Origin: Owenia fusiformis
Taxonomy: Eukaryota > Annelida > Polychaeta > Sabellida > Oweniidae
Assembly: GCA_903813345.2 (NCBI GenBank)
Contig: CAIIXF020000009.1
Span: 25,766,740-25,830,739, forward strand
Direction of reading: 5' to 3'
Length of the DNA stretch: 64,000 nucleotides
Shown one piece after another: positions 220-59,975 of this stretch. The translations under genes were made by a program, and so were the position numbers. Position 1 is the first letter of the stretch. Each line of letters starts with the position of its first letter. The notes beneath the pieces were generated by a model. It was given only the letters and a program-made list of their open reading frames with translations. It was not told the DNA's origin and did not search any database.

Positions 220-23694
<23,475 letters not shown>

Positions 23695-26700: not shown

Positions 26701-26984
26701 AAACAGGGTAACTTTCCATTCTGATACACATCGCATCTAAAAAAACTGTCTGTGCAAGAAGAGAGGGCCATGGTATTCCATAATGGTAAGTTTCAATATT
26801 TTACGAATTAAATTTTTCGAAAAGTGTCATTTATCTGTGGCTCAACTTAGAAATATAACAGAGGCACAAAAACCCTGCAAAAGAGTACTGTTGAAAAAAT
26901 CGAGTATATTACTCAGTATATAAGTGGGTAAAGTTGGCTGCATATTGGTATTGGGATTGGGATTCAAAATGACCAGCAGCTAGT

Positions 26985-29900
26985 GAGCTTGAATGTCAAT
27001 ACCAATACAAATATGAAACCTAATATGAATCAAAATATGGTTAAGTATATCATTATACCAATGAATGTTGATGTTTATGTATCAAATGTACTCGAATGTC
27101 AATACCAATACAAATATGAGCTCATATTATTAGGATTCGCCAACTATGTTTGAATCCCAATTTCAACCCCAATATGAATCCTAATATGGTTATTTATATC
27201 CTTCTTGCAAAGAATGACGATTTTCTGCATCAAATGCGGTCGAATGTCAATACCAATACAAATTTGATCTCATATTAGGATTCAACACATATGTTTGAAT
27301 CCTAATACAAATACTAATATGAATGCTAATACATTGATTGTTTACATCATTCTAGCGAAAAAGACTACTTTTCTGCTGCAAATGCGGTCGAATGTCAATA
27401 CCAATACAAATATGAGCTTATATTAGGATTCGCTTACTATGTTTGAATCCTAATACGAATACTTATATGAATCCTAATATGGTTATCTATATCACAATAG
27501 CGAAGAAACGCGATTTTTCTACAGAAAATGCGGTCGAATGTCAATACCAATACAAATATGAGCTCATATAAGCATTCACCAACTATGTTTGAATCCTGAT
27601 ACGAATACTAATATGAATCCTAATATGGTTTTTCATATCATTCTAGCGAAGAAAAACGACTTTTCTGCTGCAAATGCGGTCGAATGTCAATACCAATACA
27701 AATATGAGCTCATATTAGGATTCACCAAATATGTTTGAATCCCAATACGAATACTAATATGAATCCTAATATGAATCCTAATATGTTTGTTTACATCATT
27801 CTAGCAAAGAAAGACGACTTTTCTACAGCAAATGTGGTCGAATGTCAATACCAATACGACTATGCGTTCATATTGGGATTCGCCAACTGTGTTCGAATCC
27901 TAATACGAATCCTAATATGAATACTAATATGGTTATCTACATCACAATAGCGAAAAAACACGATACTTCTACAGCAAATGTGGTCGAATGTCAATACCAA
28001 TACAAATATGAGCTCATATTAACATTCACCAACTATGTTTGAATCCTAATACGAATACTAATATGAATCCTAATACGGTTGTTTATATAACAGCAAATGT
28101 GGTCGAATGGCAATCCCAATACAAATATGATCTCATATTAGGATTCAACAAATATGTTTGAATCCTAATACGAATACAAATATGAATGCTAATATGGTTT
28201 TTCATATCATTCTAGCGAAGAAAAACGACTTTTCTGCTGCAAATGCGGTCGAATGTCAATACAAATACAAATATGAGCTCATATTAGATTCACCAAATAT
28301 GTTTGAATCCCAATACGAATACTAATATGAATCCTAATATGGTTGTTTACATCATTCTAGCAAAGAAAGACGACTTTTCTACAGCAAATGTGGTCAAATG
28401 TCAATACCAATACAACTATGCGTTCTTATTGGGATTCGCCAACTGTGTTCGAATCCTAATACGAATTCAATATGAATACTAATATGGTTATCTACATCAC
28501 AATAGCGAAAAAACACGATACTTCTACAGCAAATGTGGTCGAATGTCAATACCAATACAAATATGAGCTCATATTAACATTCACCAACTATGTTTGAATC
28601 CTAATACGAATACTAATATGAATCCTAATACGGTTGTTTATATAATTCTAGCGAAGAAGGATGATTTTTCTGCAGCAAATGTGGTCGAATGTCAATACCA
28701 ATACAAATATGATCTCATATTAGGATTCAACAAATATGTTTGAATCCTAATACGAATACAAATATGAATGCTAATATGGTTGTTTACATCATTCTAGCGA
28801 AGAAAGACGACTTTTCTGCTGCAAATGCGGTCGAATGTCAATACCAATACAAATATGAGCTCATATAAGCATTCACCAACTATGTTTGAATCCGAATACG
28901 AATACTAATATGAATCCTAATACGGTTGTTTATATAATTCTAGCGAAGAAGGATGATTTTTCTGCAGCAAATGTGGTCGAATGTCAATACCAATACAAAT
29001 ATGCATGATCTCATATTAGGATTCAACAAATATGTTTGAATCCTTAAACGAATACTGAATGCTAATATGGTTGTTTACATCATTCAAGCGAAGACGACTT
29101 TTCTGCTGCAAATGCGGTCAAATGTCAAAACCAATACAAATATGAGCTCATATTAGCATTCACCAACTATGTTTGAATCCTAATACGAATACTAATATGA
29201 ATCCTAACACGGTTGTTTATATCATTCTAGCAAAAAAACACAAATTTTCTACAGCAAATGTGGTCGAATGTCAATACCAATACAACTATGCGTTCATATT
29301 GGGATTCGCCAACTGTGTTCGGATCCTACTACGAATTCTAATATGAATACTAATATGGTTATCTATATCACAATAGAGTAAAAAGACGATTGTCTGTAGC
29401 AAATGTGGTTGAATGTCAACACCAATACAAATATGAGTTCATATTAAGATTCGCCAACTATGTTTGAATCCCAATTTCAATCCTAATATGAATCCTAATA
29501 TGGTTGTTTATATCATTCTAGTGAAGAAACGCAGATTTTCTACAGCAAATGTGCTCGAATGTCAATACCAATACAACTATTTATCGTATAATCTGTAAAA
29601 TGAAGCCCTCTGATTGGTCAGTTCTTGTGCTGTACCAATCTGTATTGCTACTGAGATTGTCCGCGTTGATCATCTCCGTCGCAATACAGAAAATATTGGT
29701 ACGGAGGAGACAATTTCAGTAGCAATACAGAGGATAACACGATAAAAACGTTATTGAATGATTTGAAGTGCAATACAGGATATATTCTGTCTCGATATTC
29801 TGTATTGGCACTCGACTTCGTCTCGTTCCAATACGGAATTTCTCGAACAGAATATATCCTGTATTGCACTTCAAATCATTCAATAACTTATAGTGTTCAT

Positions 29901-31530
29901 ATTGGGATTCGCCAACGGTGTTCGAATCCTAATACGAATCCTAATATGAATCCTAATATGGTTATCTATATCACAGTAGCGAAGAAACAGGATACTTCTA
30001 CAGCAAATGTGGTCGAATGTCAATATCAATACAATTATGAGCTCATATTATGATTCGCCAACTATGTTTGAATCCTAATACGAATACTAATATGAATCCT
30101 AATATGGTTATCTATATCACAATAGCGAAGAAACGCGATTTTTCTACAGAAAATGTGGTCGAATGTCAATACCAATACAAATATGAGCTCATATTAGCAT
30201 TCACCAACTATGTTTGAATCCTAATACGAATACTAATATGAATCCTAATATGGTTTTTCATATCATTCTAGCGAAGACGACTTTTCTGCTGCAAATGCGG
30301 TCAAATGTCAATACCAATACAAATATGAGCTCATATAAGGATTCACCAAATATGTTTGAATCCCAATACGAATACTAATATGAATCCTAATATGGTTGTT
30401 TACATCATTCTAGCAAAGAAAGACGACTTTTCTGCTGCAAATGCGGTCGAATGTCAATACCAATACAACTATGCGGTCATATTAGGATTCGCCAACTGTG
30501 TTCGAATCTTAATACGAATACTAATATGAATCCTAATATGGTTATCTACATCATTCTAGCAAAGAAAGACGACATTTCTGCTGCAAATGCGGCCGAATGT
30601 CAATACCAATACAACTATACGTTCATATTGGGATTCGCCAACTGTGTTCGAATCCTAATACGAATCCTAATATGAATCCTAATATTGTTATCTATATCAC
30701 AATAGCGAAGAGACACGATACTTCTACAGCAAATGTGGTCGAATGTCAATACCAATACAAATATGAGCTCATATTGGCATTCACCAATTATGTTTGAATC
30801 CTAATACGAATACTAATATGAATCCTAATATGGTTGTTTAAATCATTCTAGCAAAGAAAGACTACTTTTCTGCTGCAAATGCGGTCGAATGTCAATACCA
30901 ATACAACTATGCGTTCATATTGGGATTCGCCAACTGTGTTCGAATCCTAATACGAATCCTTATATGAATCCGAATATGGTTATCTATATCACAATAGCGA
31001 AGAAACACGATACTTCTACAGAAAATGTGGTCGAATGTCAATACCAATACAAATATGAGGTCATATTAAGATTTGCCAGGTCTTTTTGAATCCTAATACG
31101 AATACTAATATGAATCCTAATACGGTTGTTTATATCATTCTAGCGAAGAAACACGACTTTTCTACAGCAAATGTGGTCGAATGTCAATACCAATACAACT
31201 ATGCGTTCATATTAGGATTCGCCAACTGTGTTCGAATATTAATACGAATCCTAATATGAATACTAATATGGTTATCTATATCACAATAGCGTAGAAAGAC
31301 GATTTGTCTATAGCGAATGTGGTTGAATGTCAACACAAATATGAGTTCATATTAGGATTCGCCAACTATGTTTGAATCCCAATTTCAATCCTAATATGAA
31401 TCCTAATATGGATTTTTATATCATTCTTGTGAAGAAACACAAATTTTCTACAGCAAATGTGGTCGAATGTCAATACCAATACAACTATGCGTTCATATCG
31501 GGATTCGCCAACTGTGTTCGAATCCTAATA
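26985..31530 (+). repeat. Left satellite arm, ~30 units of ~146 bp
   Basis: Each unit contains GGTCGAATGTCAATACCAAT, GAGCTCATATTAGGATTC, GTTTGAATCCTAATACGAAT and TTCTAGCGAAGAAA. Spacing measured between successive GTCAATACC words is 146 bp, or about 157 when an extra GAATCCTAATAT is present. Several unit subtypes alternate (ACATCATTCTAGC versus ATATCACAATAGC forms), suggesting higher-order structure. One insertion interrupts the arm at 29581-29891. The unit length is not a multiple of three, so its ~66-codon frames are not genes. Confidence 0.9.
29581..29891. mobile_element. Double-hairpin insertion E1 in the left satellite arm
   Basis: A normal unit is broken after CAACTAT and resumes at GTTCATATTGGG. 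The insert starts TTATCGTATAATC and ends AATAACTTATA. It consists of two successive palindromes. The first has arms containing TATTGCTACTGAGATTGTC. The second has arms GTTATTGAATGATTTGAAG... and its complement, meeting at the hinge CGATAAAAACGTTATT. It carries TCTGATTGGTC near the left end. It is non-coding. Confidence 0.7.
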
Positions 31531-31620
31531 AATAATAAAGTCTATATTAATTGTTTGTTTAGTTGTTGATGTGGCAATAGTTGTCTGACGTCACAGGTGA
31601 TTGCATCATATTCAAGTAAC
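31531..31620. other. Single-copy centre of the giant foldback element
   Basis: About 90 bp separates the two opposed arrays. It contains the palindrome TGACGTCA, a CRE-like octamer, at about 31587. Nothing else is recognisable. It would be the loop if the arms paired. Confidence 0.6.
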
Positions 31621-33384
31621 GACCATATTTGGATTCATATTAGGATTCGTATTAGGATTCAAACATAGTTGGTGAATCCTAATATGAGATCATATTTATA
31701 TTGGTATTGAGATTTGAACACACTTGCTACAGAAAAATAACATCTTTTGTTATGATGACATAAATAACCATCTTTGCATTCATATTAGGATTAATATTGG
31801 GATTCGAAAAGTCGTCGTTCTTCGCTAGAATGATATAAACAACCATATTTGGATTCATATTAGTATTCGTATTAGGATTGAAACAGACCTCGCGAATCCT
31901 AATATGAGCTCATATTTGTATTTGTATTGACATTCGACCACATTTGATGCAGAAATTCGTCATTCTTTGCTAGAATGATATAAATAACAATATTAGGATT
32001 CATATTAGGATTCGTATTAGGATTTAAACAGACCTGGCGAATCCTAATATGAGTTCTTATTTGTATCGGTATTGACATTCGACCACATTTCCTGCAGGAA
32101 TGTCATCATTCTTCGCTAGAATGATATAAACAACCATATTAGGATTCATATTAGTATTCGTATTAGGATTCAAACATAGTTAATATGAGCTCATATTTTA
32201 TTGGTATTGACATTCGACCACATTTGCTGTAGAAGTATTGTGTTTCTTCGCTATTGTAATATAGATAACCATATTAGTATTCATATGAGTATTCGTATTA
32301 GGATTCAATCAGAGTATGCGAATTCTAATATGAGCTCATATTTGTATTGGTATCGACATTCGACCACATTTCCTGCAGAAATGTCATCTTTCTTCGCTGG
32401 AATGGTATAAACAACCATATTAGGATTCATATTAGTATTTGTATTAGGATTCAAACAGAGAAAGCGAATCCTAATATGAGCTCATATTTGTATTTGTATT
32501 GACATCCGACCGCATTTGCAGCAGAAAAGTCGTCTTTCTTTGCTAGAATGATGTAAACAACCATATTAGCATTCATATTAGTATTCGTATTAGGATTCAA
32601 ACATATTTGTTGAATCCTATTATGAGATCATATTTGTATTGGTATTGACATTCGATCGCATTTGCAGCAGAAAAGTCGTCTTTCTTTGCTAGAATGATGG
32701 AAACAACCATATTTGCATTCATATAAGTATTCGTATTAGGATTCAAACATATTTGTTGAATCCTTATATGAGATAATATTTGTATTGGTTTTGACATTCG
32801 TCCACATTTGCTGCAGAAAAATCATCCTTCTTCGCTAGAATTATATAAACAACCATATTAGGATTCATATTAATATTCGTATTAGGATTCAAACAGAGAA
32901 AGCAAATCCTAATATGGTTGTTTATATAATTCTAGCGAAGAAGGATGATTTTTTATGAGTATTTGTATTGGTTTTGACATTCGACCACATTTTCTGCAGA
33001 AATGTCATCCTTTTTCGCTAGAATGATATAAACAACCATATTAGAATTCATATTAGTATTCGTATTAGGATTCAAACAGAGAAAGCGAATCCTATTATGA
33101 GCTCATATTTGTATTGGTATTGACATTCGACCGCATCTGCAGCAGAAAAGTCGTCTTTCTTTGCTAAAATGATGTAAACAACCATATTAGCATTCATATT
33201 AGTATTCGTATTAGGATTCAAACATATTTGTTGAATCCTAATATGAGATCATATTTGTATTGGTATTGACATTCGACCACATTTGCTGCGGAAAAGTCGT
33301 CTTTCTTAGCTAGAATGATGTAAACAACCATATTAGTATTCGTATTAGGATTCAAACGTATTTGTTGAATCCTAATATGAGATC

Positions 33385-33964
33385 TTATTCCATGATGGTG
33401 AAATTCCCTGCAATCTGATTGGTCCACGTGACTTAAATATATTCTGTATTTACACGCACTTTCCTGTGTCAATGACGTCAGCGTTGGGATACGGTCCAGT
33501 ATCCCAACGCCCTAGATTTCCATCCAGGATATTACTGTTACTGAAAAAAATCAATGGCGATTTCTTTACACCAACGCATGCTTATCTTTGAATTTTGCTA
33601 TAAATATCTGATTCAAATATCAGAAACGTATACTGTGATCACCACAATCAATAATTTTAAGAGGAAAAAACGCAAACAAAAAGCAAACAACAAGGACATA
33701 AAGATTTTGAAGGAATATCGATGTAAAATATCTCTGAAGTGAGAAGGTTGATCTGTTTCTCCGGCCCCAAGCCAACGGACTTGATTTAGGCGAGTTTTAT
33801 ATGGGTAATCATGGAATAAAAACGTTATTCAATGATTTCTTGTGAAATACAGAGAATATTCTTCCCTTGAACGTCTGTATTTCACTCTGCTAGCGCATCG
33901 TGAAATACGACCTTCTCGGGAAGAATATTTTCTGTATTTCACTCGAATCATTGAATAACTTATA
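33385..33964. mobile_element. Double-hairpin insertion E2 in the right satellite arm
   Basis: It begins TTATTCCATGATGG, has TCTGATTGGTC near its left end, the hinge GGAATAAAAACGTTATTC, and ends ATTGAATAACTTATA. The right palindrome has the same layout as E1 but different arm letters (GAAATACAG paired with CTGTATTTC, against GCAATACAG/CTGTATTGC in E1). The flanks resume the satellite unit. The left palindrome is longer and includes GGGATACGGTCCAGTATCCC. Confidence 0.7.
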
Positions 33965-34529
33965 ATATTTGTATTGGTATTGACATTCGACCACATTTGC
34001 TGCAGAAAAATCATCCTTCTTCGCTAGAATTATATAAACAACCGTATTAGGATTCAGATTAGTATTCGTATTAGGATTCAAACATAGTTGGTGAATGTTA
34101 ATATGAGCTCATATTTGTATTGGTATTGACATTCGACCACATTTGCTGTAGAATAATCGTGTTCCTTCGCTATTGTGATATAGATAACCATATTAGTATT
34201 CATATTAGGATTTGTATTAGGATTCAAACATAGTATGCAAATTCTAATATGAGCTCATATTTGTATTGGTTTTGACATTCGACCACATTTCCTGCAGAAA
34301 TGTCTTCCTTCATTGCTAGAATGATATAAACAACCATATTAGGATTCATATTAGTATTTGTATTTGGATTCAAACAGAGAAAACGAATCCTATTATGAGC
34401 TCATATTTGTATTGGTATTGACATTCGACCGCATTTGCAGCGGAAAAGTCGTCTTTCTTAGCTAGAATGATGTAAACAACCATATTAGTATTCGTATTAG
34501 GATTCAAACGTATTTGTTGAATCCTAATA

Positions 34530-34733
34530 CTGTATAAGTGGTATTTAATCCGAGTGGTTAATTTTCCGAATGGTCAAATTTCATCATTTTCCTAATTTTA
34601 ATTTTCTAATGACAAGAAACCTCCCATTGGATAACATTATAAAGACAATATTTCCGACATTTAATTTTCCGAACCTGGCAAAAATGAGGAAATAGGCAAA
34701 TTAAATGATTAGGCAAAATTACCACTTATACAG
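34530..34733. mobile_element. 204-bp Tc1/mariner-like MITE inside the satellite
   Basis: Terminal inverted repeats CTGTATAAGTGGTA / TACCACTTATACAG lie between duplicated TA dinucleotides (34528-34529, 34734-34735). Removing the element and one TA restores the satellite word CCTAATATGAGATCA exactly. TA duplication is diagnostic of Tc1/mariner-type insertion. It has no coding capacity and postdates the array. Confidence 0.9.
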
Positions 34734-35699
34734 TATGAGATCATATTTGTATTGGTATTGACATTCGACCACATTTGCTATAGACAAGTCGTCTTTTTAC
34801 GCTATTGTGATATAGATAACCATATTAGTATTCATATTAGGATTCGTATTAGGATTTGAACACAGTTGGCGAATCCCAATATGAACACATAGTTGTATTG
34901 GTATTGACATTCGACCACATTTGCTGTAGAAAATTTGTGTTTCTTTGCTAGAATGATATAAACAACCGTATTAGGATTCATATTAGTATTCGTATTAGGA
35001 TTCAAACATAGTTGGTGAATGCTAATATGAGCTCATATTTGTATTGGTATTGACATTCGACCGCATTTGCAGCAGAAAAGTCGTCTTTCTCGCTAGAATG
35101 ATGTAAACAACCATATTAGCATTCATATTAGTTTTCGTATTAGAATTTAAACATATTTGTTGAATCCTAATATGAGATCATATTTGTATTGGTATTGACA
35201 TTCGACCACATTTGCTGCAGAAAAATCATCTTCTTTGCTAGAATTATATGAACAACCGTATTAGGATTCATATTAGTATTCGTATTAGGATTCAAACATA
35301 GTTGGCGAATGCTAATATGAGCTCATATTTGTATTGGTATTGACATTCGACCGCATTTGCAGCAGAAAAGTCGTCTTTCTTCGCTAGAATGATGTAAACA
35401 ACCATATTAGCATTCATATTAGTATTCGTATTAGAATTTAAACATATTTGTTGAATCCTAATATGAGATCATATTTGTATTGGTATTGACATTCGACCAC
35501 ATTTGCTGCAGAAAAATCATCCTTCTTCGCTAGAATTATATAAACAGCCATATTTGGATTCATATTAGTATTCGTATTAGGATTCAAACAGAGAAAGCGA
35601 AACCTAATATGAGCTCATATTTGTATTGGGATTGACATTCGACTACATTTGCTGCATAAAATCGCTAGAGTGACATAAAATTCATATTAGGATTCAAAA

Positions 35700-36030
35700 T
35701 GACGATTTTATCACATGCTTAGGAATCTTGAAGCATTTTGCTTTGGTCAGTTATGATTGTGTTCAGTACTGTTACTCCCGGTAACTTTTATAATTTTTGT
35801 GTGTTTTGAAATTTAACTTTGAAATAATATGACGTCATACCGTTGAATACTTACTTGTTCGTGAAATAATATGACGTCATATGAAAGAATGGAATGTAGT
35901 TGTATGACGCCATTTCGTTACCATAGACAAAGTGTGGAACGTGTGCTCGTATCACATGAAAAGTATGTGATACGGGAAATACGTCTTAGAAAGCAACCAA
36001 TCAAATCACTAGTATTCTACATAGTATGTG
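35700..36030. mobile_element. Double-hairpin-like insertion E5 in the right satellite arm
   Basis: Foreign sequence runs from GACGATTTTATCACATGC to CATAGTATGTGATAAAC, so its ends are inverted copies of TTTATCACAT. It contains GTATCACATG...TATGTGATAC and two ATAATATGACGTCAT words (35827, 35869). The sister segment of the array near 37200 lacks it, so it arrived after that duplication. GACGATTTTATCAC is the complement of the hinge in E4 (52826). Confidence 0.55.
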
Positions 36031-37350
36031 ATAAACAACCATATTAGCATTCATATTAGTATTCGTATTAGGATTCATTTCAAACATATTTGTTGAATCC
36101 TAATATGAGATCATATTTGTATTGGTATTGACATTCGACCGCATTTGCAGCGGAAAAGTCGTCTTTCTTAGCTAGAATGATGTAAACAACCATAATAGTA
36201 TTCGTATTAGGATTCAAACGTATTTGTTGAATCCTAATATGAGATCATATTTGTATTGGTATTGACATTCGACCACATTTGCTATAGACAAGTCGTCTTT
36301 TTACGCTATTGTGATATAGATAACCATATTAGTATTCATATTAGGATTCGTATTAGGATTTGAACACAGTTGGCGAATCCCAATATGAACGCATAGTTGT
36401 ATTGGTATTGACATTCGACCACATTTGCTGTAGAAAATTTGTGTTTCTTTGCTAGAATGATATAAACAACCGTATTAGGATTCATATTAGTATTCGTATT
36501 AGGATTCAAACATAGTTGGTGAATGCTAATACGAGCTCATATTTGTATTGGTATTGACATTCGACCGCATTTGCAGCAGAAAAGTCGTCTTTCTTCGCTA
36601 GAATGATGTAAACAACCATATTAGCATTCATATTAGTATTCGTATTAGAATTTAAACATATTTGTTGAATCCTAATATGAGATCATATTTGTATTGGTAT
36701 TGACATTCGACCACATTTGCTGCAGAAAAATCATCTTCTTTGCTAGAATTATATAAACAACCGTATTAGGATTCATATTAGTATTCGTATTAGGATTCAA
36801 ACATAGTTGGTGAATGCTAATATGAGCTCATATTTGTATTGGTATTGACATTCGACCGCATTTGCAGCAGAAAAGTCGTCTTTCTTCGCTAGAATGATGT
36901 AAAAAACCATATTAGCATTCATATTAGTATTCGTATTAGAATTTAAACATATTTGTTGAATCCTAATATGAGATCATATTTGTATTGGTATTGACATTCG
37001 ACCACATTTGCTGCAGAAAAATCATCCTTCTTCGCTAGAATTATATAAACAACCATATTTGGATTCATATTAGTATTCGTATTAGGATTCAAACAGAGAA
37101 AGCGAATCCTAATATGAGCTCATATTTGTATTGGGATTGACATTCGACTACATTTGCTGCATAAAATCGCTAGAGTGACATAAAATTCATATTAGGATTC
37201 AAATTGGCATTCAAATAGAAGACTATGTATCCTAATGTGAGATCATATTTGTATTGGTATTGACATTCAAGCTCACCAGCAGGTGCTGGTCATTTTGAAT
37301 CTCAATCCCAATACCAATATGCAGCCAACTTTACCCACTTCTCAGTATAT

Positions 37351-37857
37351 GGTATGATCTTTCGATCCATCGACCGGCGCCCGGTCGGTTGAGTGTTTTG
37401 TTCAATATTGTATTCAGAGATTACTTTTACAATTTATGAATGAGAAAATATGACTAAAGAACATGGGAAATTTAATAATCCTTCTTTTTCTCACTTTTCA
37501 ACACTACGCACTGGCGTTTTGGCGTACATTGTTCCTACGCCACTGTGTATGTTAGCTAGATGTGATCATATACAAATCCAGACTCCTAAAAAGAAACAGC
37601 TTATAAAAAGCACGTGATAACAATGATTTAAACCCAATTTACTTCCTTGTTTGATATAGAAAATGAAAGCTCATGTTACTTCCGCATCTGGTAAAGTTAA
37701 AATGTTCTGATGAATGTTTGCACAAATATACATATGAATGGAGACGTTTTAACATTTTTCAAGTCATACGGAGTCATAACGTGCGTAAAACAGTTCTTTT
37801 AGTATCAGCAATTCAAAGCTAATAGTGAGTGTATGGATACACATGTAAAATTATAAA
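37351..37857. other. Intergenic gap before the membrane-protein gene
   Basis: At 37369-37422 there is half of the palindromic repeat also found whole at 48658-48803 (shared words CGATCCATCG, CCGGCGCCCG, TTGAGTGTTTTGTTCAAT). The rest is AT-rich. No clear TATA box was found ahead of the start at 37858. Confidence 0.5.
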
Positions 37858-40800
37858 ATGTTTTGCTGGTATTGGATTCAAGTTTATGTATTGGCAGTCT
37901 ATATTATACGTTTATGTGATGGAGGTAAGATTTTCTACTGTATTGTATTGTTATTATTATTGTATTATTCTACTGTATATATATTGTATATCTATATAAA
38001 TATGATATTATTGTTATATACAAAAATACTTTCGTTTTACTTAAAATCTCATATGGTTATCTCATATTGATTTGTCATTTGCCTCCGTATGGATTTATTA
38101 CTTGTTGTTGATATAAGGAATCATAAACTCAAACATCGTCATAAACTCAAACTTCAGATCGGTATATGATTCCTGTTATAGATAAATACATGTTTATTAT
38201 GAGATTGAGAACCATTAGAACATGTTCTCAATGTTCAAGTGACTGAATGCTAAATATAAAGCACCAATTTTTAATGACAATTAAGATATATTATATACTA
38301 TTTAGAGGTTATGTCACTATCGTGGCATATATGCCCGAGGTCTCAGTGATATATGGCCCGACCTTGGGAGGGACATTGATCTCTGAGAACCGAGGGCATA
38401 TGTGCCACGATAGTGACATAAACGATTTATAACATACCTATGATGATGTAGACTGGTCAGAGAGTACCGTTTTCTTATAGAATTGACAAACAAATGGTTT
38501 GAAAATGATTGAAATGAGTTTAGAAAAATTGCTCGCGCAGTTTTACCTTCGATTGATTGGTTATGACGTCAGCGCCTTAACCAATCAGAAAGTTAGCGGG
38601 CGCGGGCTTTTCAAAACTTATATTGGCCCGCTGTCTTGTGTACACTTTGCACTATACATCATCATAGGTATGTTATAAAATCTAGTATAATACCAGGTAT
38701 AATTTGATGTCAAACAAAATTGTCACTTTGCTATATGTCGTTGACATAACTTGGTAATGGATGGATCAGATTCAGAAACATATGGATCGGAACCGGATCA
38801 CGCTCCATCTCAAATCTTCAATACCAATCCATTTAGTAATCAGATATCTCGATTCTTCAAAAAATTAGGAATATAAGGGAGATCATGATATATTTTGAAG
38901 AAGACTTCTCGCGTTTTACACTCTCAATCCTTATTCCTGTTATTATTTTCAATAATTCATGAGGCATTCCAGTGCAAACAATTACCAAACAGGCCAATAG
39001 CCAGGATTCGCCAAGGGGGATGGGGGTCACTTTTCAAAAAGTTCTAGGGGTGGGGGGGGGGGGTCACTTATAACAACTTTGGCCAAAATGGCAAAAATCA
39101 CTTGAAAAGTGCAAAGAATGGGAGTATTGGGGTACTAATCATAAGTCACAATTCAATGTTATTGTAAAGGTTTCCCCCTCCAGTTTTAGACAATTCATTG
39201 CCATAACCATCTAACCATTTAACCATCTAATAAATACGCTTTCACATGATGCCATTACCAATTTTCATTCAAAGTATTCAACTATTGATTATTTGAATCA
39301 CTGATTGAATCAGTAAATAAAACCGTGCAGTTAAACATTAAGACATACTTTTCATGTAACCAATTATACAATGCACTTATAACATTTCCTTGATGTCTCT
39401 TTTAGAATGCCCTAGTGGGAAAACAGATGAATCTTATGGACTGAGTTGCGCGGAGGAATTCGCTATACATATTCAAAATGTAACAGATTATTCAAAGGGG
39501 GCGCTCACTGGTAGATTATATTGCAAAGGAAATATTGAACCAAGCTTTAGATTAAAACAAAGCAATGGAAGACGCTTTTATAACGATACGTTCTATCCAA
39601 GTGACACCTCTTGTAAGCTTTGTAATTTCCCAGGAGCATGTTATCCGTATAGAGAAATATGCTATAAGTGTTACGAATCTGTCCAGGAATTATCAGGTAA
39701 TACAATAGAAATAGACTGTGATATGACAAAATCAATCAACATAAAACTCGTAATACACAAGCAAAACAAAACAGAAACTACAAAGGATTATTGCAAAGAG
39801 GAAAATGAGAACCGTCTCAATGACATAAAATCTATGTGTAATGAGAGAAATCGATGTCGTCCTATAGCTTCACCAACCAATCCATTAACAGGCTGTAGAG
39901 GGGATAATAAATATGAGCAGATATTGTTCGAGTGCAGTACGAGACAAAACAAACACACAACTGTAACAGTTCCATCCACTAATCATGACCCAACAACAAA
40001 GGAACAAACATTAACAATTCCCGGTTTAAGTCCTACAAAGCCTTTAAATCTATCTATACGGACAACAACAACGACGCCTACCACAACCACTGCCAAAAAA
40101 TCGACTATTTCTCCTGTCACAAAAGATGTTCAAAATGAGGTGACGGATCAAGTTGGGAAAGTTAAACCTGCAGTGTCACAAACAAGTAAGTGTTCTTTTA
40201 GGTCAGAAGATGTTTAAAATTTCCAAGTAATTTCTGAATTCATTTCATTTAAATACATCACTATATGTTCATGTCAATATTGGATATTATTCATATTGGC
40301 ACCCGTTATCAAGGATATCCTTCTGAATACATCTTGCACTATTAGAGAAAGAGAACAGAAACATACCCATTAACTATAACTACAAATACACATAGCCACT
40401 AAATGTTTTTATAGAATGATACATGTAATTTCAGCAATGATCGTTCTTATTGCGGTTGGGGTGGTTATTATTATGGTGGTGATATTAGTAACTGTATGTG
40501 TATATAAGATAAAAAGGTATGTTAAGAATAACTTACTAGTATAAGCCAATTTACGATAATTGATATTAGTTACCCCCCTATCACACCAAACTAGTTCTTA
40601 CCCGTTCTTGCCAGTCCTACGAAAATGTCGTAAAACGGGCTAAATCTGACTGTGGTCGGGAAATATGTCTGAAATAATTAGCTTCTTCGTTCTTAAACAG
40701 TCTTCAATACGTCCATCTCGTTCGCAGTTCGTTTAGGTCGCACCACGTCGGTGTGCAACGTCGTAGAACGCGTCCCTTAGTCCAGAAGGTCATCATGACC

Positions 40801-42227
40801 TGATTACAGAACGGTATGGTCGCCATCGAATTTTGAATCGATTCAAAATTCTAAATTACATTCCCGTCTGAGAACGTTCATAAAGTTCGTAAATAGACCT
40901 TAGAAAGTTGCAGCTACGTTCATTCCGTTCGCACACAGTTTAAAACCAGTTTTGAAGAACGCAGTGGCAACTTGTTTGGTGTGATAGCTATATTTTTGCT
41001 AACTCGTTCATAAGCAGTGTTAAATACGTTCTTAATCAGTTTAAACCCGTTTGCAATTAGTTCTACCTCGTTCTCAACACGTCCTCAGACAGTTCAACTC
41101 GTTGTTAAAACGTCCCTAGTAGGATTGAAGTGCGACGGTTCCCTTCGTAGTACGTCCAGCTCGTCGTTAGTACGTTTTCAGTCGTTCTAATTGTAGAACG
41201 TGACGACCACGAGAACATTTTGATCATTGTCTAAGTTCTAGAGGACCTATCCGTTCGAGTACGTTGGATGAAGTTTATAAATAGATCCCAAACGGTTCTT
41301 AGTAGGTCCAGTCCGTTCGTACACAGTTGAAGCCCGTTTTCGAGAACGTAGTGAGAACTAGTTTGGTGTGATAGAAGGGTTATCAAACAATATCAACCCT
41401 ATTTAAGATAAACCAGAATATAATTTTGCATTTCTAGAAACAGAGCACAAAGAAGAGATCAACATTCACAACCAGACAAGATGAATGAAGAAAAGGACCA
41501 AATTATAGAGATGTTTCCACTTGTATTGAACAAAAATTATGAGAATACTGACCAACCGGATCTCATTCCAAATGAGTTGTATGGCATTGGAAAAGATGGA
41601 AATCGCGATAGTCTGAATGATAAAGGTGAATATACATATGTGGGAAAGGAGCCTGTTAATGAGAGTGTATATTGTGTTGAAACATATGGAAAAGGTCTAC
41701 CTACTACTAGAGAAGATGCTGTCTATGCATTTCCAAGCAGGAATTCCATAAATTCCAAACAAGACGACGATGGCAACCAACCAGCAAGCACAGATAGGCC
41801 TAATCAAATAAACAGTGATGCAAATCCATATTATGCCTCACCATTAGATGTGGACCAATCTAGTGTCAGTGTAGGGCATATTGACACACCCGGTGACTAT
41901 AATGAACTTCAACTGGGAACAAAGAAACCACGTAAAGGAAACCCCAGTGATGAAAGCTACTTTCATATAGGTATGGTCAGAAATAATGATGAGGATATGC
42001 ACTACAATACCCCTATGGAGATGAGTGATACAAATGTTGACAGAAATCTGAGAGAAAATAGAGACCAAAGTCAGACTCCATTTGAGCATAACGGTCCATA
42101 TTCCTACGTGTCCACGCGAGGTAGTAACAATAATGTTAAGGATAATACACATCACATTAAAGATAATATTAAAGGCAGAATCAGATCTATAGGGGGTGAC
42201 AAAATTACAAGCAACGTGCATAATTGA
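37858..42227 (+). CDS. Type I membrane protein, Cys-rich/lectin-like ectodomain, Tyr-rich tail (572 aa)
   Basis: Exons 37858-37924, 39406-40185, 40435-40516 and 41438-42227 have matching phases (1, 1, 2) and consensus borders, and encode 572 residues. Exon 1 is a signal peptide (MFCWYWIQVYVLAVYIIRL). Exon 2 holds a Cys-rich ectodomain of about 190 residues. Its second half, from IDCDMTKSINIKL to GDNKYEQILFEC, resembles a degenerate SUEL/RBL galactose-binding lectin. A Thr/Pro-rich stalk follows. Exon 3 is the membrane helix (VLIAVGVVIIMVVILVTVC). The exon 4 tail carries about a dozen Tyr motifs (YENT, YTYV, NPYYAS, DYNELQL, SYFHI), suggesting phosphotyrosine signalling. A Harbinger-like element sits in intron 3 and a double-hairpin element in intron 1. 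Function and ligand are unknown. I do not recognise a named orthologue. Confidence 0.82.
38305..38680. mobile_element. Double-hairpin insertion E3 in intron 1 of the membrane-protein gene
   Basis: The first palindrome is TTATGTCACTATCGTGGCAT... and its complement ending GATAGTGACATAA. After the hinge ACGATTTATAAC a second palindrome has arms AACATACCTATGATGATGTA and the complement TACATCATCATAGGTATGTT. It includes GATTGGTTATGACGTCAGCG. The layout is that of E1 and E2 with different arm sequences. Confidence 0.6.
39000..39130. repeat. G-rich repeat fragment in intron 1
   Basis: GCCAGGATTCGCCAAGGGGG, a run of 11 G at about 39052 and GGTCACTT words make up a short G-rich tract. Similar GTAGCCAG...CCAAGGGGGGG wording occurs at 47650. 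It is probably transposon debris and has no coding content. Confidence 0.4.
40573..41379. mobile_element. Harbinger-like non-autonomous element, copy A
   Basis: The inverted ends CTATCACACCAAACTAGTTCT lie between TTA on both sides (40570-40572 and 41380-41382), a 3-bp duplication typical of PIF/Harbinger. The 807-bp interior is dense in CGTT, CGTCC and GTTCTTA words. At about 40975 it holds an internal copy of the end (GTTTGGTGTGATAG), as if two shorter elements had fused. There is no transposase. Copies B, C and D lie at 56064-58277. Confidence 0.8.
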
Positions 42228-47400: not shown

Positions 47401-50400
47401 ATTGTTTTAATTATTTTTATGTAAATGGTGTTTTCATAATGACCGTCCTCCCATCTACAGTCAATCCTATATCACATGGCCCCATAATCTATATACCATC
47501 ATGATCTGGACTTATGTGCCAAATATTACCATGACAGCGCAATCGTGCCTCATAAGGTACGCAATTATGAACAAAATGATTTTGAGAATGACAATGCAAT
47601 GTGTTTCATTCTTGGGTAAACGTTATCAGAAAATGGATATAGTATCAGGCCCGTAGCCAGCTTTTGCCAAGGGGGGGGGGGATTTTTTCCAAATCCTTTT
47701 TTTGGCAAGGGGAAGGGGCGGGGAGGGTTCGTCTCCCCTCCGGCTACGGACCTAAGTACCCTTCGTAAGGTCGCAATATAAAGTAAAGAACATATCTACT
47801 CACTACCGTTCCAGTCTTTTGCTGTGTAGCACATAGTATTACATGGTAACTGTAATATTTTATCATCCGTCTTGGTTATTTGACCACATTTTGTTGGATC
47901 ATTAATACTATTGCACTCAAAACACCTAAGAGGCTCTAAAAATTCGACAAGATGGAAACATATCCTATAGAATTGCACAGATAAATTAGTAGTTCCACGA
48001 TGTCTAGTTACAAATGAAACTGATCTTTCGCATATAATAGTTTTTGCAAGCATAACATCGAAATGACAAAAAATACTTGAGCATATAAAAGAGCCTCCAA
48101 GTGCTCTCCCAAGTGATTTTTAAATGATCTCTTCTGCACTAAGGTTTTAAACGACAGTTGGAAAGCTGAGAGTATCAGCTTTAAGAATTTAACCTCCATT
48201 CGAATTTTGGCTGATGTTCATCACCAAGGGGTAAAATTAAGAAATTAATCATGCTTTTTCAATCAAGATACATTTTGACAATCGGTTTCTAATTTCGATC
48301 TAAATGTCCATAACAACAATGTTTGTGGTCCAGGCAACACAACAGTATATAATTATGATGTTTACACTTTGTGGTTATAATTACATTTTATCTTTGAATG
48401 AAATTACCACTCAAGGGAGGGTGGTGTATGTGAAAATATATGGTTTCAGAATGCCCTGTGGACTGTTATGTCTAATGCAATCTTAATATTCTCAGGAGAA
48501 AATTAGTAATTTGTATTGAACATTCCTAAATACCAAAATTACACATTAAAGTACATATTGTTTTCAAATATCAAATCTTATTTATACTGAGAACTAAAAT
48601 TCTGACACATTTTGTAGCATAATGGAGTCACTGCACTTATCCGGTATTTAGGTAATGTAATGCCTTGGTCACATATGCTCCGATCCATCGGCCGGCGCCC
48701 GTCCGATTGAGTGTTTTGTTCAATTTTGTATTCAATTTTGAACAAAATACTCAATCGGCCGGGCGCAGTAGTGTAAATCGGAGCAAATGTGACCAAGGCA
48801 TTAATGACCCCTATCTCAACCTATATGGGTTCAAACTCTTAAATATTCTTCAAAGTATAATTTTACATTGAATTAGTTAGGCCATTGGTAACCTGAAAAT
48901 AATCCATTCTGGCCATAGGGGAACTTGTCATTTTGAAATTGATAAATGACCCATTTCACTGGGGGGTATCGTGATGCAACAACACCGTGTTGTTGCATCA
49001 AGATGGCCAGATTTCCGGTGATAGATTTTCGTACGATGTTTTGTTTTCCCAATTTACACCCATTTCTAGGACGAGTTGCTCAATAATCATACACATGCAG
49101 TTAGGTTATGATCTGTATTTTAAAAAACTGTCATTGGTATACATGTAGCATCATCAAGAAGCGATAAATTCGTGGTTTTAATTCCTCACTATTGATGCAA
49201 CAACACCACTCTGTTTCTTATCGATGATGCAACAACACCAATGTGCTGATGCAAAAACGCCAATATAATGTATCATTGAACAACAAGAGAAACTGTTTTA
49301 TGTTCTGTTTACAGGTGTAGGTCGGGACATGAATAAAACGCGTGAGTCAGTGGTCCATGAACGAAGCGTATTTTGTTTGGTTTCTTTGTCTATATCAAAG
49401 TTAAAAGGATATACAAGGCAAACTAAATAAAGTACTGAATCCCCGGGAGGCAATCTCATTGATATTGTATCTGAAAAATAAAGATTATACATTTTCTAAA
49501 TTAAATGCCCTTGATTTACCGTAAGGAAATTGTTTACAAATAACTAATATACTTTTGGAAAGACAACAGATATCAGTCATTTTGTGTTGTTAGTACCTCA
49601 ATTGAAATACTCAATTCTGATTGGTTGATGAGCGGTCAACAAAATGTATTGTTAGTACCTCAACTGAAATACTCGATTCTGATTGGGTGATTATTGGATG
49701 AGAATGACTTTACTAGGCGATAAGTATAGCAAAAATACAAATAGAAACTTAAAATTAACATTAATTCACTAACGAGTACGCCGTGATGTGCCAAATACAG
49801 AGTTAAGCTACTTGCACTGTCTCCAGATTTTCTAAAAAAAAAAATTGCTAACGTGGTTCGGAGAAAAGGTTGTGAAATGAAACCATGCCGATTGATGATT
49901 GTCGTCTATATGTGTATTATTAGTTTACTCGGACTAACAAAACAATTGTAGACCTCTCCATTCGATCAACCGTCAAAATCATATACCTCGACTGTAAACC
50001 TTGAAACTACTGTTGACCTCGACCTTCATCTCTGTCAACAGTAGTTTTTCGGTTTACAGTCTCGGTATACAATTTTGCCGGTTGACCTCTGGGGAGGTCA
50101 ACAATTGTAAACTGTTGACCACTACTAGGTACTGTTGACCCCTATTTTTGAAAAATTGTTTTTTAATGTTGAAATTTTTTTAATTTTGAAAAAATAAGTT
50201 GTGCAAAAATTACAAGTATTCGACGGTTTTGGGATTTTTTGCTAGAATATGATACCTTTACTTATAAAATATGTTCATGTGATATTCGATTATATATTCG
50301 TCCAATTATTATATTATTTGGACTAACAGAACAATTGTTAACCTCTCTTTTCGGTCAACTGGCAAAAGTGTCCTCGACCTCTGGTCTTGATCAACAGTAC

Positions 50401-53400
50401 TTTCAAGGTTTACAGTATCGGTATACAATTTTGCCAGTTGACCTTAAGAGAGGTCTACAATTGTATATTATTTCTTTCAAATTATTATATTCTTCGGACT
50501 AACAAACAATTGTTAACCTCTCTATTCGGTCAACTGGCCAAAGTGTATACCTCAACAGTAAACCCTGAGAGTACTGTTGACCTCGACCTCCGAACTTTCA
50601 AGGATTACAGTATCGGTATACAATTTTGCCAGTTGACCTCAAGAGAGGTCTACAATTGTATATTGTATATCCTTTGTTATCCCACCCAAAGTATGATGTC
50701 ATATATCAAGTTGAAGAGTTGTATATGCTGCTCAGGAGTTTACGCTATCCAGGAGTTGAACACCACCGTTCTCAAGGGTTGTATAGGATGAGAATTGGTT
50801 TAATGATATTGCAGTTGCTATTATATAGAGGTTATTTACTGAGAGGGATTCAATATTGGTTTTATTCCGAGAGACAATATGATATTTCCCGAGGGCCCGG
50901 GATATCTGGGATAACTGTACCCCTATCAATTTACCTTTTTGGGCCCTTAATCTTATCACTTTTGTTTACCTTTTTACTCAGTCGGAGAGAAGGAATCCAA
51001 AGAGAGCAATAATTCTACATGTGCGTCGTTCAAGATTTCCATTAAACGTGTAACTAAACGGCTTCTCTAATAAAGTCACGTTTTTACACGTTGGCTCTCC
51101 AAATTGGAGGAAATAAAGAATCATATCATATTATATCATAGATGAAACAATCATCCCATCAACATAAGCTCACGAATGTCACAGTTAAACTGTTTTAGTT
51201 ATAATTTGATAAACAGTGGTAACGTAAATCTACTAGTTTATCACTGTTCCACAGATGGATGACAGATAATTTCCAATAGCTCATCATATTTACCGAGAAC
51301 GAAAGATGTTTGTCCACCATTTTGAATGATACTAACTGGAGTCAGGGTCATCAAGCTATGGAATAGTGGTTTATGAAAATAGATTGGGTTACTAAAGCTT
51401 GCCATGTTAAAGGCGATTGAACTATGTTATAGAACAACGTCCAGAACGTTATAATGTTTAAAAGTATAAATTTTTTGAAAACACATATAAATGATCTTCA
51501 CCCGCAGCAAGTGTATTTTGAATGCCTTGAGAAGAACGCAAATATGGGTAATGGGTAACGGTATCGCAATAGTAGCATTTAAAAATCTGTTCCACTCGAG
51601 ATTTATGGTCTTTGAAATTATACTATTAATTGGTGTTGCTGCATCATTCCTCAAATCTAGAGGAGTGTTGTTGCATCTTCAGTTTGGTGTTGTTGCATCA
51701 ATAGTGAGGAACTAAAACCGTGAACTTATTGCTTCTTGGTGATGGTACATGTATACTAATGACAGTTTCTTTAAATATAGATCGTGCGCTAACTGCACGT
51801 GTATGGTTATTGAGCAACTCGTCCTAGAAATGGGTTTAATTGGGGAAACAAAATATCGTACGAAAATCTATCACCGGAAGTCTGGCCATCTTGATGCAAC
51901 AACACGGTGTTGTTGCATCACGATACTCCCCAGTGCATTTGGAATGAAAGGGTTAATATCTAATTAATATCACAGTACTGAACACAATGATAATGACCAA
52001 AGCAAAATGCTTCATTTCTACATTCCAAGACATGTGAGGACAACCTGCAACGAATGCTAGATACCCTACACACTTGGTGTACCAAATGGCGCATGACGGT
52101 AAATGAAGCAATCTTATGGAGCGGAACATCTTTTTCATGTTGAAACAAGAAACATAAAAATACAATTGAAACAATTCAAAGAAATTCTCGTTGCAAAAGA
52201 ACACGAGTCATGGTATACTGCATTGTGGAACGATAACCGTAACCCTGTAAATGGTAATAAGCTACGAGTATACCGGCTTCATAAAATCCATGCTTCACAC
52301 ACAGAACACTATGTAACTATTTTCATGCATAAACACGAGCGCAGCAACTTAGCAAGATTACGCTCAGGAACTTTACCGCTGAAGGTTGAAACAGGCAGGT
52401 TTCAAGGTATTCCCCTTCAAGAAAGATTATGCATGTGTCAACAAGGGGTCGAAGATGAAATGCATATCCTCATTGACTGTGATCTTCATACTTATGCACG
52501 AAGGGATTTTATTGAACTTTGCAAAAATGAAATAACTGACTTTAATACATTATCTAGTCTAGCTAAATACTGCTCAATTATGAACAACTCTATTTTACAA
52601 AGACCATTGGCAAAAACTATACATAAAATAATGTGCAATAGAAGAGAATATGATATTTAAAACTTTTACATCTGAGCATATTTTTGATATATTTTTACAT
52701 TGCTTTCTTGAGTCTCTCATACGCCGAAGCCGGCGGGACTGTTAATTATTGTATGTTATTTTAGTACGTATATTGTTAACTACAGTGTGAGACTTTAATA
52801 AATATTTTACTAACTAACTAACTGTGATAAAATCGTCATCACACGTTTCAGCTTATGTGATACAGGAAAAATTCCACTCGGGTAAGAATGTATCACTACT
52901 TCGCTTTCGTGGATGATACAATATTACCTTTCGTGGAATATTTCCTGTATCACATTCTGAAACGTGTGATAACTGATAGTAAAATGTATATTTCAAGGCA
53001 AATGAGTGAAATCCTACCGCTACAAGTTTTATGGTCGCTCATCAGTTTGTACCCAGGGTAGCAACTACACCGCGGCTGACCTCCATCGGTAGAGCCAATT
53101 CTATAATAACATTGATGAGTACACAAGCCATTGTTCTTCGTACATGGGTTAGACTTCCCGCCTGTTAAAATCAATGAAGATGATGGAAGTTTAATTGCAA
53201 AATTAGAAAATGCGAAGCAGAAGTAAATCAATAGGCAGAAGACTATCTCCTCATTGTAAAAAGGTGACAACAGGCAAGAATGATATCCGGAATGACCTTA
53301 ACAACATTGAATTCAAGCACACAGGTCCAAGCAACAAGCTAAGAACAAAGATGTACACAAGCCTTACCTGTATTGCAGCGATATCTTGTTTTATAGTCCT

Positions 53401-55445
53401 GACAGCCAGGTCTATTTCTTGAATTCAAGCACACAAGTCCAAGCAACAAGCTAAGAACAAAGATATACACAAGCCTTACCTGTATTGCAGATATATATCT
53501 TGTTTAATAGTCCTGACAGCCAGGTCTATCTCTTGAATTCACGCATACAAGTCCAAGCAACAAGCTAAGAACAAAGATATACACAAGCCTTACCTGTATT
53601 GCAGCGATATCTTGTTTTATAGTCCTGACAGCCAGGTCTATTTCTTGAATTCACGCATACAAGTCCAAGCAACAAGCCAAGAACAAAGATATACACAAGC
53701 CTTACCTGTATTGCAGCGATATCTTGTTTTATAGTCCTGACAGCCAGGTCTATTTCTTGAATTCACGCATACAAGTCCAAGCAACAAGCTAAGAACAAAT
53801 ACATAAACAAGCCTAACCTGTATTGCAGCGATATCTTGTTTTATAGTCCTGACAGCCAGGTCTATTTCTTAAATTCACGCATACAAGTCCAATCAACAAG
53901 CTAAGAACAAAGATATACACAAGCCTTACCTGTATTGCAGCGACATCTTGTTTTATAGTCCTGACAGCCAGGTCTATTTCTTGAATTCACGCTTACAAGT
54001 CCAAGCAACAAGCTAAGAACAAATACATAAACAAGCCTTACCTGTATTGCAGCGATATCTTGTTTTATAGTCCTGACAGCCAGGTCTATCTCTTGAATTC
54101 ACGCTTACAAGTCCAAGCAACAAGCTAAAACAAAGATGTATACAAGCCTTACCTGTATTGCAACGATATCTTGTTTGATAGTCCTCACAGCCAGGTCTAT
54201 TTCTTGAATTCAAGCATACAAGTCCAAGCATGAGAGTGCATTCATATCCTTTTTCAAACTTCTGCTCGGTTTTATCATACGACTCACCGCTCGTAGTTTG
54301 GCATTCGATTCCGTTGGGATACGGACATGGATCCAAATGCTATAATCAGTTAGGCCTCCTAGACTTCCACCAACGCGAACATCAGTTCTGACCTCGCGAA
54401 CTACGTTCCTTGCACTCGAACAACGGTTCTCACATCGCAAACGTGAAATCTTAGTCGCGCACCACCTTTTCCTCGCTCCCGAACATACTTCTCCACCAGT
54501 CCACACGCACACAGAGATCCGTGCTCGCGAACCACTTGTTCACTTGTGCGAGACTAAAGATTTCACGTTTGCGATGTGAGAATCGTGGTTCGAGTGCAAG
54601 GAACGTAGTTCGCGAAGTCAGAACTGATGTTCGCGTTGGTGGAAGTCTAGGAGGCCTGATAATGCAGGACAAATAAATTGGTCTATAAGATATCATATGG
54701 GGTATTTGTGATGAAGCCAATCAAAGCGAGAGCAATGTTTTGGAAGCATGTTGGAATACTTTGACTTTTAAAACCGTTATCAACAGAGATCGAAAAAATA
54801 CCAATCCACGTTTCTTCTTACTTTCGATTTTATCAAGATTTATACCTTGAATAAACATTCTGGTTATATCACACTTTTGGACCTATAGAGCTGCGCAATA
54901 AATGATGACGTAATCAAACGCTTTATAAGTTATACGTTATGCGGAAATATTAAACATAGTATTCAGGGAGTTGCAAAATCTCATAAATATCTTGCATGAT
55001 CACCTTTCCAAAATCTTGTCTTGTCTCTGAATCGCCATTGCCTGATGGGTTATCTCGGTCGACCCAAACTGTCATATATTCACTCCTCACTGCTGATGCA
55101 ATACCTAGATTTATTGGGGTAGAGAGGGATAAACGTCGAGTTAGATGAACATTATGAATTATAGTCCCTGACCTGAGTTTTCTAAGAGTGGATTATCAAA
55201 TAAATTTTATTTTTCTATTAGATTGATATTGTTTTAGAAAAGTTAAAAATGTACTTATTCTCCAACAATTTGTCAAAGGAGTAAAGGATACACCAAGAAA
55301 ACCAGCATGTTGAATTAGAATCTTGGAAAAGTGTGATTTAAATACCTTTTTTTTATCAAAATAGTATAGTTCACCGTATCATACCTGAGCACATAACAAG
55401 AAAACCCAGACAAAACGTCATGTATGGAGAAGACCTATAAAACAT
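44403..55445 (-). CDS. Secreted WxxW-EGF-Ly6/uPAR-CUB protein, 8 exons (388 aa)
   Basis: Exons, in gene order: 55385-55445, 55004-55104, 54153-54339, 53018-53161, 47807-47935, 47095-47292, 46775-46956, 44403-44567. All phases agree (1, 0, 1, 1, 1, 1, 0), total 1167 nt with stop. Exon 1 is a signal peptide (TFCLGFLVMCSG). Exons 2-3 form a WxxW domain of the CILP/mucin type (VWVDRDNPSGNGDSE, PYPNGIEC, GLVCLNSRNRPGCEDY, RYRC). Exon 4 is one EGF-like domain (CTKNNGLCTHQC, CSCYPGY). Exons 5-6 form a Ly6/uPAR three-finger domain (RCFECNSINDPTKC to YCSGDLCN). Exons 7-8 form a CUB domain (GYGTLTSQNFGGNLKYDN, LIGYYCDSKKPPS) ending at the stop. No membrane or GPI signal follows, so it should be secreted. 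Intron 4 (about 4.9 kb) is full of transposons. I know no named protein with this domain order. Role unknown, possibly extracellular matrix, cuticle or immunity. Confidence 0.87.
47640..47760. repeat. G-rich palindromic repeat in intron 5
   Basis: TCAGGCCCGTAGCCAGC and GGCTACGGACCTAAG face each other across a 12-G run and GGGGCGGGGAGGG. It resembles the fragment at 39000. It is non-coding transposon debris within the intron between the first and second Ly6 exons. Confidence 0.45.
48658..48803. mobile_element. 146-bp near-perfect palindromic MITE
   Basis: Arms of about 65 bp, beginning TAATGCCTTGGTCACAT and ending with its complement, fold around GTATTC. TAA/TTA at the two edges is compatible with a 3-bp Harbinger-type target. 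It lies in intron 4 of the WxxW gene. Half a related copy sits at 37369-37422, just outside the giant foldback element. Confidence 0.75.
49575..49700 (+). repeat. Two-copy ~65-bp direct repeat
   Basis: TTGTTAGTACCTCAATTGAA ... ATTCTGATTGGTTGA is followed by a second copy TTGTTAGTACCTCAACTGAA ... TTCTGATTGGGTGA. The TCTGATTGG word is shared with the left ends of the double-hairpin elements E1 and E2. Confidence 0.6.
49915..50665. repeat. Three successive hairpin-forming repeats
   Basis: Units near 49925-50115, 50318-50465 and 50492-50660 each begin CGGACTAACA(A)AACAATTG and pair GTTAACCTCTC...GGTCAACTGGC with GCCAGTTGACCT...GAGAGGTC. Arm sequences vary between units while pairing is kept. Frames across them are repeat translations, not genes. 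Confidence 0.65.
50626..51012 (+). other. Unexplained 128-codon open frame with hydrophobic stretches
   Basis: From about codon 14 the frame leaves the hairpin repeat. It then encodes a Tyr/Leu/Arg-rich stretch (IGLMILQLLLYRGYLL) and a C-terminal hydrophobic segment (PLILSLLFTFLLS), and ends QREQ. About 50 nt later AATAAAG occurs twice and the sequence passes into CATATTATAT-type simple repeat, like the 3' end of a retroelement. I do not recognise the product. It may be the tail of a mobile-element protein or chance. Confidence 0.3.
51990..52830 (+). pseudogene. 5'-truncated, internally deleted non-LTR retrotransposon
   Basis: Around 52045-52105 one frame reads LQRMLDTLHTWCTKWRMTVN, the region after the catalytic motif of a LINE reverse transcriptase, with a one-base shift just upstream. 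At about 52105 the frame changes again and 52103-52660 (185 codons) gives the C-terminal domain, including RSGTLPLKVETGRF and the Cys/His zinc knuckle CMCQQGVEDEMHILIDC. The 3' tail has AATAAA at 52797 and ends in a TAAC repeat (CTAACTAACTAACT). The RT core is largely missing, so this is a dead copy. Clade not determined. Confidence 0.8.
52826..52976. mobile_element. Hairpin element E4 (right half of the double-hairpin family)
   Basis: GATAAAATCGTCATCACACG leads into arms CACACGTTTCAG...TGTGATACAGGAAA and the complement TTTCCTGTATCACA...CTGAAACGTGTG, closing around CTTCGCTTTCGTG. Arm layout parallels the right hairpins of E1 and E2. It abuts the LINE tail and lies about 40 nt from the EGF exon donor. 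Confidence 0.65.
53308..54240 (-). repeat. Eight-copy ~112-bp tandem repeat amplifying the end of WxxW exon 3
   Basis: Donor positions on the gene strand recur at 54153 (true exon), 54042, 53930, 53818, 53706, 53594, 53480 and 53367. Each unit carries the last ~60 nt of the exon (encoding RPGCQDYKTRYRCNT), its GTAAGG donor, and intron ending TTTGTTCTTAG. The copies keep the Cys codons. A copy spliced via its own AG would enter in the wrong phase, so tandem inclusion would break the frame. They may be decoys or competing donors. Confidence 0.88.
54352..54657. mobile_element. 306-bp palindromic MITE abutting WxxW exon 3
   Basis: The left arm AGGCCTCCTAGACTTCCACC... is repeated inverted at the right edge for about 115 bp with only a few mismatches (shared words CAACGCGAACATCAGTTCTG, CGCGAACTACGTTCCTTGCA, CATCGCAAACGTGAAATCT). 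It ends 12 nt from the acceptor boundary at 54339, so the MITE edge falls inside the region normally used for branch point and pyrimidine tract. No clear target duplication was seen. Confidence 0.85.
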
Positions 55446-56063
55446 TGTTTTTTTAACTTTTGCATAGAACAGCATTTTCAAATCAATAATTACATGGTTA
55501 TCCAAAGTATCCAATCACGTTTGTTCAATATGCTACATATTATACAATTTAGAATCGAATATATTTTCTTCGTCGCAATAAAACAAAATATTTTCAACAA
55601 GGCAAAAGGCACGAACATGCAAAATGTCAACACCTACCATTCGTTACAGAAGCCGAAGGCTGTTCCCGACGCCGAACACCAACCTCCGAACACTAGCCAC
55701 AAAAACAAAACAATATGTCACCACTTGGTATCTGGTGGTGACATAATAAGAATCGAAAATAGAAATGTTTAACTTACATCATGTTTCCTCCTCAGATGAT
55801 GACTTTTTAAAACGCTTTTACAACAATATCACCGCAATTTCATATACTGTAAGTCCTCCAACTTTTAATGAGCCACGATCCTTGAATGTCGCTATTGTTA
55901 TCTAAATGCTACCTATTATACCCTTTGTTCTCGTAATTGAAGGCCTTTGTGTTTAAAAGTCACCGAGGGACGCTCCTCGTGAAAACATGTTAACGTTATT
56001 ATCATAGTCACGTTATTAATACGTTTTATTTCACATTTTGCTTTGAACATCGGATTTACGTAA
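55446..56063. other. Intergenic region upstream of the WxxW gene
   Basis: It should contain the promoter of the gene starting at 55445. No TATA or other element was recognised. It contains the dispersed repeat at 55607-55753 and otherwise AT-rich sequence. Confidence 0.45.
55607..55753 (+). repeat. Dispersed 3'-hairpin repeat, copy 4
   Basis: ACATGCAAAATGTCAACACC, then GCCGAACACCAACC, then CAATATGTCACCACTTGG...TGGTGGTGACATAATAAGA. It is the same family as 2985, 6715 and 26255-26700. Confidence 0.65.
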
Positions 56064-59860: not shown

Positions 59861-59975
59861 GATGACACGATTGTTACGTCATAGCTATTACGATGTGATT
59901 TTCTGCTGGGCACCATGCAATTTTAGATAAGGAAAGTAAATCTTTAAAACACATCTTATTGGATTGCAATATAAT

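Follow-up and report, generated by a model that had tools for sequence, protein, structure and literature searches.

A palindromic satellite block in the annelid Owenia fusiformis has moved as a whole, probably as a non-autonomous foldback transposon

A block of ~10 kb, built from a ~146-bp satellite in two arrays of opposite orientation, occupies positions 26922–37340 of a 64,000-nucleotide stretch of the Owenia fusiformis genome (hereafter the window; C9:25766740–25830739 of the 498-Mb genome, with no N within it). With a probability of roughly 0.9, we consider this element to be a non-autonomous cut-and-paste foldback transposon with satellite arms, moved by a trans-acting transposase that is most likely of the MULE type. 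The common tip, the target duplications, the empty sites of two copies and the descent from a two-armed ancestor demonstrate that the whole block is mobile, in agreement with the earlier note on this DNA, which had argued that the palindromic satellite block moved as one unit.

The architecture of the element was established using nhmmer, Tandem Repeats Finder (TRF) and a comparison of the tips. The nhmmer unit scan gave 30 forward matches at ~26978–31538 (left arm, + strand) and then 32 reverse matches at ~31579–37267 (right arm, − strand), and TRF returned a period of 146 in both halves. Divergence among the satellite units is ~15%. Unit orientation flips at the centre (31539–31578), which is free of units over ~40 bp by the unit HMM and ~90 bp by TRF. 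The arms are broken by non-unit stretches, one in the left arm (~29554–29892) and three in the right arm (~33391–33990, 34531–34768, and 35643–36021). The two tips are inverted relative to each other, with 95% identity, and measure 95 bp at the left (26922–27016, + strand, L type) and 98 bp at the right (37243–37340, − strand, R type). Both consist of the same 20-nt linear end, AAGTGGGTAAAGTTGGCTGC, followed by an imperfect hairpin of ~75 nt, which is stronger in the right tip (DNA fold z = −7.1) than in the left tip (z = −4.4); the tips of the family range from −4.4 to −8.3 against shuffles. Moreover, CTCAGTATAT is confined on the + strand of the window to 26912 and 37341, abutting the outer edges of both tips as a perfect 10-bp target-site duplication (26912–26921 and 37341–37350); given the base composition, ten bases would match at a fixed boundary with a probability of ~2 × 10−6. 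The opposed ~146-bp arrays, the ~95-bp inverted ends and the perfect 10-bp duplication described in the earlier note were thus confirmed. The open reading frames (ORFs) of the element reach at most 127 aa and are mostly satellite read-through, and the element contains no genes.

Several other features were observed in the window. The right flank of the element contains a 54-bp motif (~37363–37416) that occurs again at 48681–48734 and at ~40 scored places genome-wide, and is possibly a short dispersed repeat. A 112-bp tandem repeat (8.2 copies, 94% matches) lies at 53307–54230, and one interspersed repeat is present three times (40569–41383, 56060–56875, and 57056–57834; 96% identity in direct and ~90% in inverted orientation). 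Two host-type ORFs are found on the − strand, one with a SOCS box and weak ankyrin matches (58655–59878) and one with a FAT domain barely above the cut-off (4949–5593).

The 95-bp tip and the 23 bp at its start, used as queries across the genome, identified ~44 tips, and a reversed control pattern gave none. Ten long elements were recognized as convergent tip pairs, and eight of the ten, including the window element, have perfect target duplications. The seven besides the window copy are 4.1–15.9 kb long and carry perfect 9-bp duplications (C10:30059582, C4:25781189, C9:18423244, C11:13351440, C4:19036223, C7:30078451, and C3:32664155), each expected by chance at ~8 × 10−6 per locus. The duplicated words of the paired copies are CTCAGTATAT in the window and ATATTATTA, CGATTTACG, TCTAATTAT, TAAGTTTAG, GAGTATGAT, ATTCAAATT, and GGATTTACT elsewhere. 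Comparison of both boundaries revealed no duplication at the remaining two pairs, C10:5368662, an array of same-direction units throughout, and C8:23784545, an element with ~10 kb of other DNA inside it. Well-preserved copies each have one L tip and one R tip. In addition, a 445-bp relative at C1:60971910, composed of one full tip, three same-direction units and a 12-bp opposite tip, AAGTGGGTAAAG, is flanked by the perfect 9-bp duplication GTAAAAAGC. Two more copies of this relative are located on C13 and look like duplicates of one insertion, because at least one of them has the same outer flank.

The window copy thus has a target duplication of 10 bp and the eight others have duplications of 9 bp, within the ~8–10 bp of foldbacks. 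The earlier note had proposed searching for other loci with the same ends and for shorter, few-unit relatives; the former were found as eight other bounded copies with matching 9-bp duplications, and the latter as the three-unit copy at C1:60971910. An assembly artefact is unlikely, because the inverted architecture recurs at independent loci.

For the empty-site search, both flanks of seven copies were joined with one target kept and searched against the genome. The site of the C11 copy is present without the insertion twice elsewhere on C11 (94% and 92% identity), and that of the C4:19036223 copy is empty in ~40 members of a dispersed repeat (~84–90% identity). A single target was present in all three of the empty sites aligned for these two copies. 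Such clean single-target paralogous sites indicate that both copies arose by insertion with target duplication. The empty-site check suggested in the earlier note was thus borne out for two sister copies but not for the window copy, whose empty site was not found genome-wide, only short right-flank stretches matching elsewhere. Together with the same ends and duplications at other loci, the paralogous empty sites uphold its view that the unit is mobile, of foldback type and flanked by a true target duplication.

The satellite itself was located using a 26-base unit word, which occurs 382 times in the genome with up to two mismatches (0 in the control). Tip-bearing loci that were read account for 370 of the 382 words (~97%), namely 317 plus 53 in the interior of the C3 copy, which indicates that the satellite is carried by the element. 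The word is absent from the rest of the window outside the element, and this genome-wide word search revealed no free satellite arrays away from element ends. The suggestion in the earlier note that the element could seed satellite DNA therefore found no support.

For 271 of the 316 units compared among eight elements (86%, versus 50% expected), the nearest unit in another element shares the arm type. Arm-type runs are nearly pure in most arms, the exceptions being the C10:5368662 copy and the left arm of the C4:19036223 copy. Since L and R tips are paired and the units group by arm type, two distinct arms were already present in the ancestor, and the copies moved whole. Units can be matched clearly by position only up to the third from the tip, so that the inner arrays have been reshuffled.

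The arms also show local similarity to each other. In the C3 copy they are ~84% alike over the outer ~3.5 kb; identity then steps from ~88% to 97–99.6%, in register, across an inner tract of ~1.85 kb, and the inner part of its R arm includes nine units of L type. In the window element, a ~0.92-kb tract of the left arm (28527–29443, + strand) is ~94% like the right arm, against an inter-arm median of ~85%, and overlaps consecutive L-arm units that are of R type; its right-arm counterpart lies at 34734–35654 (− strand), with a second copy closer to the right tip. This tract is a candidate for inter-arm exchange. As judged from sequence, copying of one arm onto the other across the foldback seems the simplest reading of both the C3 centre and the window tract.

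A transposase-bearing partner was sought with the models PF10551 and PF21056, with protein queries from the C11 MULE and the resident PHD-FLYWCH-MULEs, and with 12-, 14- and 23-bp tip patterns. No transposase was found within tip-bounded DNA in this assembly, with most single tips covered to 2.5 kb inward, so that the autonomous partner with the same ends for which the earlier note had proposed to look did not emerge between the tips. No MULE-type match was found near the tips except for one relic at C9:14963867. This relic was rejected as a partner: the tip-like match 2.4 kb away points away from it and has three mismatches, and both the satellite unit and a paired tip are absent from the locus. 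The C7 copy, suspected of being autonomous because its left side is without satellite, has no long ORF. The ORFs in the C8 and C4 copies resemble, by eye, fragments of other transposons rather than a MULE. PHD-finger MULE transposase is present elsewhere in the genome and absent from the window element and from the surroundings of its tips.

These resident transposases raise the alternative that they drive the element, which would then be a non-autonomous member of the Rehavkus type. A non-autonomous Rehavkus member would be without transposase. Moreover, intact PHD-FLYWCH-MULE ORFs of 599–631 aa are found in resident Rehavkus-like elements (C12:5759367, C80, C12:4481409, and C4:4983455), three of which have opposed 16-bp arrays at their ends, and Rehavkus, a MULE outgroup known from annelids and arthropods, makes 9-bp duplications and has minisatellites near the end (PMC6446971). 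However, the three Rehavkus-like elements with readable boundaries have duplications of 8 bp (GTTAATTT, GTACATAG, and GTTTGAAA), their tips (GGTTCCTAG... and GGTAACCGG...) share nothing obvious with AAGTGGGTAAAG, and no resident Rehavkus-like locus lies near a AAGTGGGTAAAG tip, which makes this origin unlikely. Because of the difference in tips, the resident MULEs are treated here as models for the architecture and not as the demonstrated driver. A further MULE gene at C11:14061165 has opposed 15-bp arrays at its flanks and no clear target duplication.

It is likewise improbable that the element is a foldback of another cut-and-paste superfamily, as Galileo is of the P superfamily. P and hAT elements produce target duplications of 7–8 bp. 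Several superfamilies have given rise to foldback architecture (PMC4079207; PMC3169594), and the tip starts with AAGT, unlike the G/C-rich start of most arthropod MULEs (PMC13359780). Nevertheless, duplications of 9 bp in the sister copies and 10 bp in the window copy fit a MULE better, as both fall within the MULE range of 8–11 bp (PMC6446971). It is the length of the duplications that suggests the Mutator (MULE) superfamily.

A Helitron/Helentron-type satellite carrier, like the oyster pearl elements, would account for the tandem-repeat core and for the hairpins close to the ends, but the inverted tips at both ends, the 9–10-bp duplications and the single-target empty sites render it very improbable; Helitrons are not known to have terminal inverted repeats or target duplications. 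Finally, an ordinary, immobile satellite array, made palindromic when it was duplicated locally in inverted orientation and with its 10-bp repeat due to chance, would suit the satellite-like interior (~15% unit divergence) and the recently copied palindromic centre of the C3 copy, but its likelihood is negligible and as a full explanation it is refuted by the same tips with differing 9-bp duplications at eight other loci (~8 × 10−6 each by chance) and by the empty sites of two copies, tip-less arrays not having been detected.

In the preferred reading, that of a non-autonomous foldback transposon, a transposase supplied in trans, most likely from the Mutator (MULE) superfamily, would recognize the ends formed by the ~20-bp tip and the ~75-bp hairpin segment. 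The whole block would then be inserted with duplication of 9–10 bp of target. The arrays may grow and shrink through unequal exchange, and foldback pairing may occasionally copy one arm onto the other, as suggested by the shared tract of the window copy (~94%) and the palindromic centre in the C3 copy (~99%). At C2:35318183, a 38-bp tip as in the element is backed by a 26-bp unit repeated ~78 times (C2:35316105–35318183, read from the tip end). A speculative extension, possible although we would not favour it, is that the hairpin tip caps interchangeable arms (146-bp units in most copies, 26-bp units at C2:35318183) and that arm copying renews the palindrome, giving a self-maintaining moving satellite.

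The copies, duplications and paralogous empty sites in this one assembly show that a palindromic unit whose satellite arrays reach ~5 kb per arm can move in one piece. Because the two arm lineages are traceable and identity changes abruptly within the C3 copy, foldback growth and copying between the arms are open to direct tests. Such long near-palindromes are also potential sources of rearrangement, and the intact resident MULEs with opposed minisatellite ends offer a possible model for the origin of such arms.

The closest known systems are Tetris and Foldback (FB) of Drosophila. FB in D. melanogaster has long inverted arms of tandem repeats of ~31 bp and 9-bp duplications. By description, the window family is like FB in its long inverted tandem-repeat arms and 9-bp duplications, whereas the FB repeats are far shorter and the window family has hairpin tips and two distinguishable arm lineages. 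Oyster pearl elements have a one-directional core, are of the rolling-circle type and are not known to have target duplications or inverted tips. Oyster pearl and Helentron elements resemble the window family in being mobile and carrying satellite-like tandem repeats (PMC7492417). Rehavkus is similar in its 9-bp duplications and end minisatellite, and the Rehavkus-like copies in the same genome end in opposed arrays; it differs in tip sequence, in being coding and in its 16-bp arrays, and the resident copies have 8-bp duplications. Tm1, a Mutator/Foldback element of Meloidogyne assigned to Phantom-type MULEs, has variable composite terminal inverted repeats (TIRs), 9-bp duplications and mostly non-autonomous members, but it differs in having a tandem motif of ~14 bp and a known putative autonomous copy (PMC3169594). 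Tetris, a foldback of Drosophila virilis and a suspected MULE, contains ~220-bp tandem repeats in its TIRs and makes 8–10-bp duplications (PMC4079207). Like the window family, it is non-autonomous, bears satellite-length repeats in its arms and has no autonomous copy found, but its repeats also formed free satellite arrays (PMC4079207), of which none were seen here. Furthermore, Tetris arms reach at most 1.7 kb, with few repeats and a separate middle domain, whereas those of the window family reach ~5 kb and ~30 units and make up nearly the whole element. No description of this family was found among open-access papers. Compared with its known relatives, the window family is larger, almost pure satellite and hairpin-tipped, and its arm lineages are traceable.
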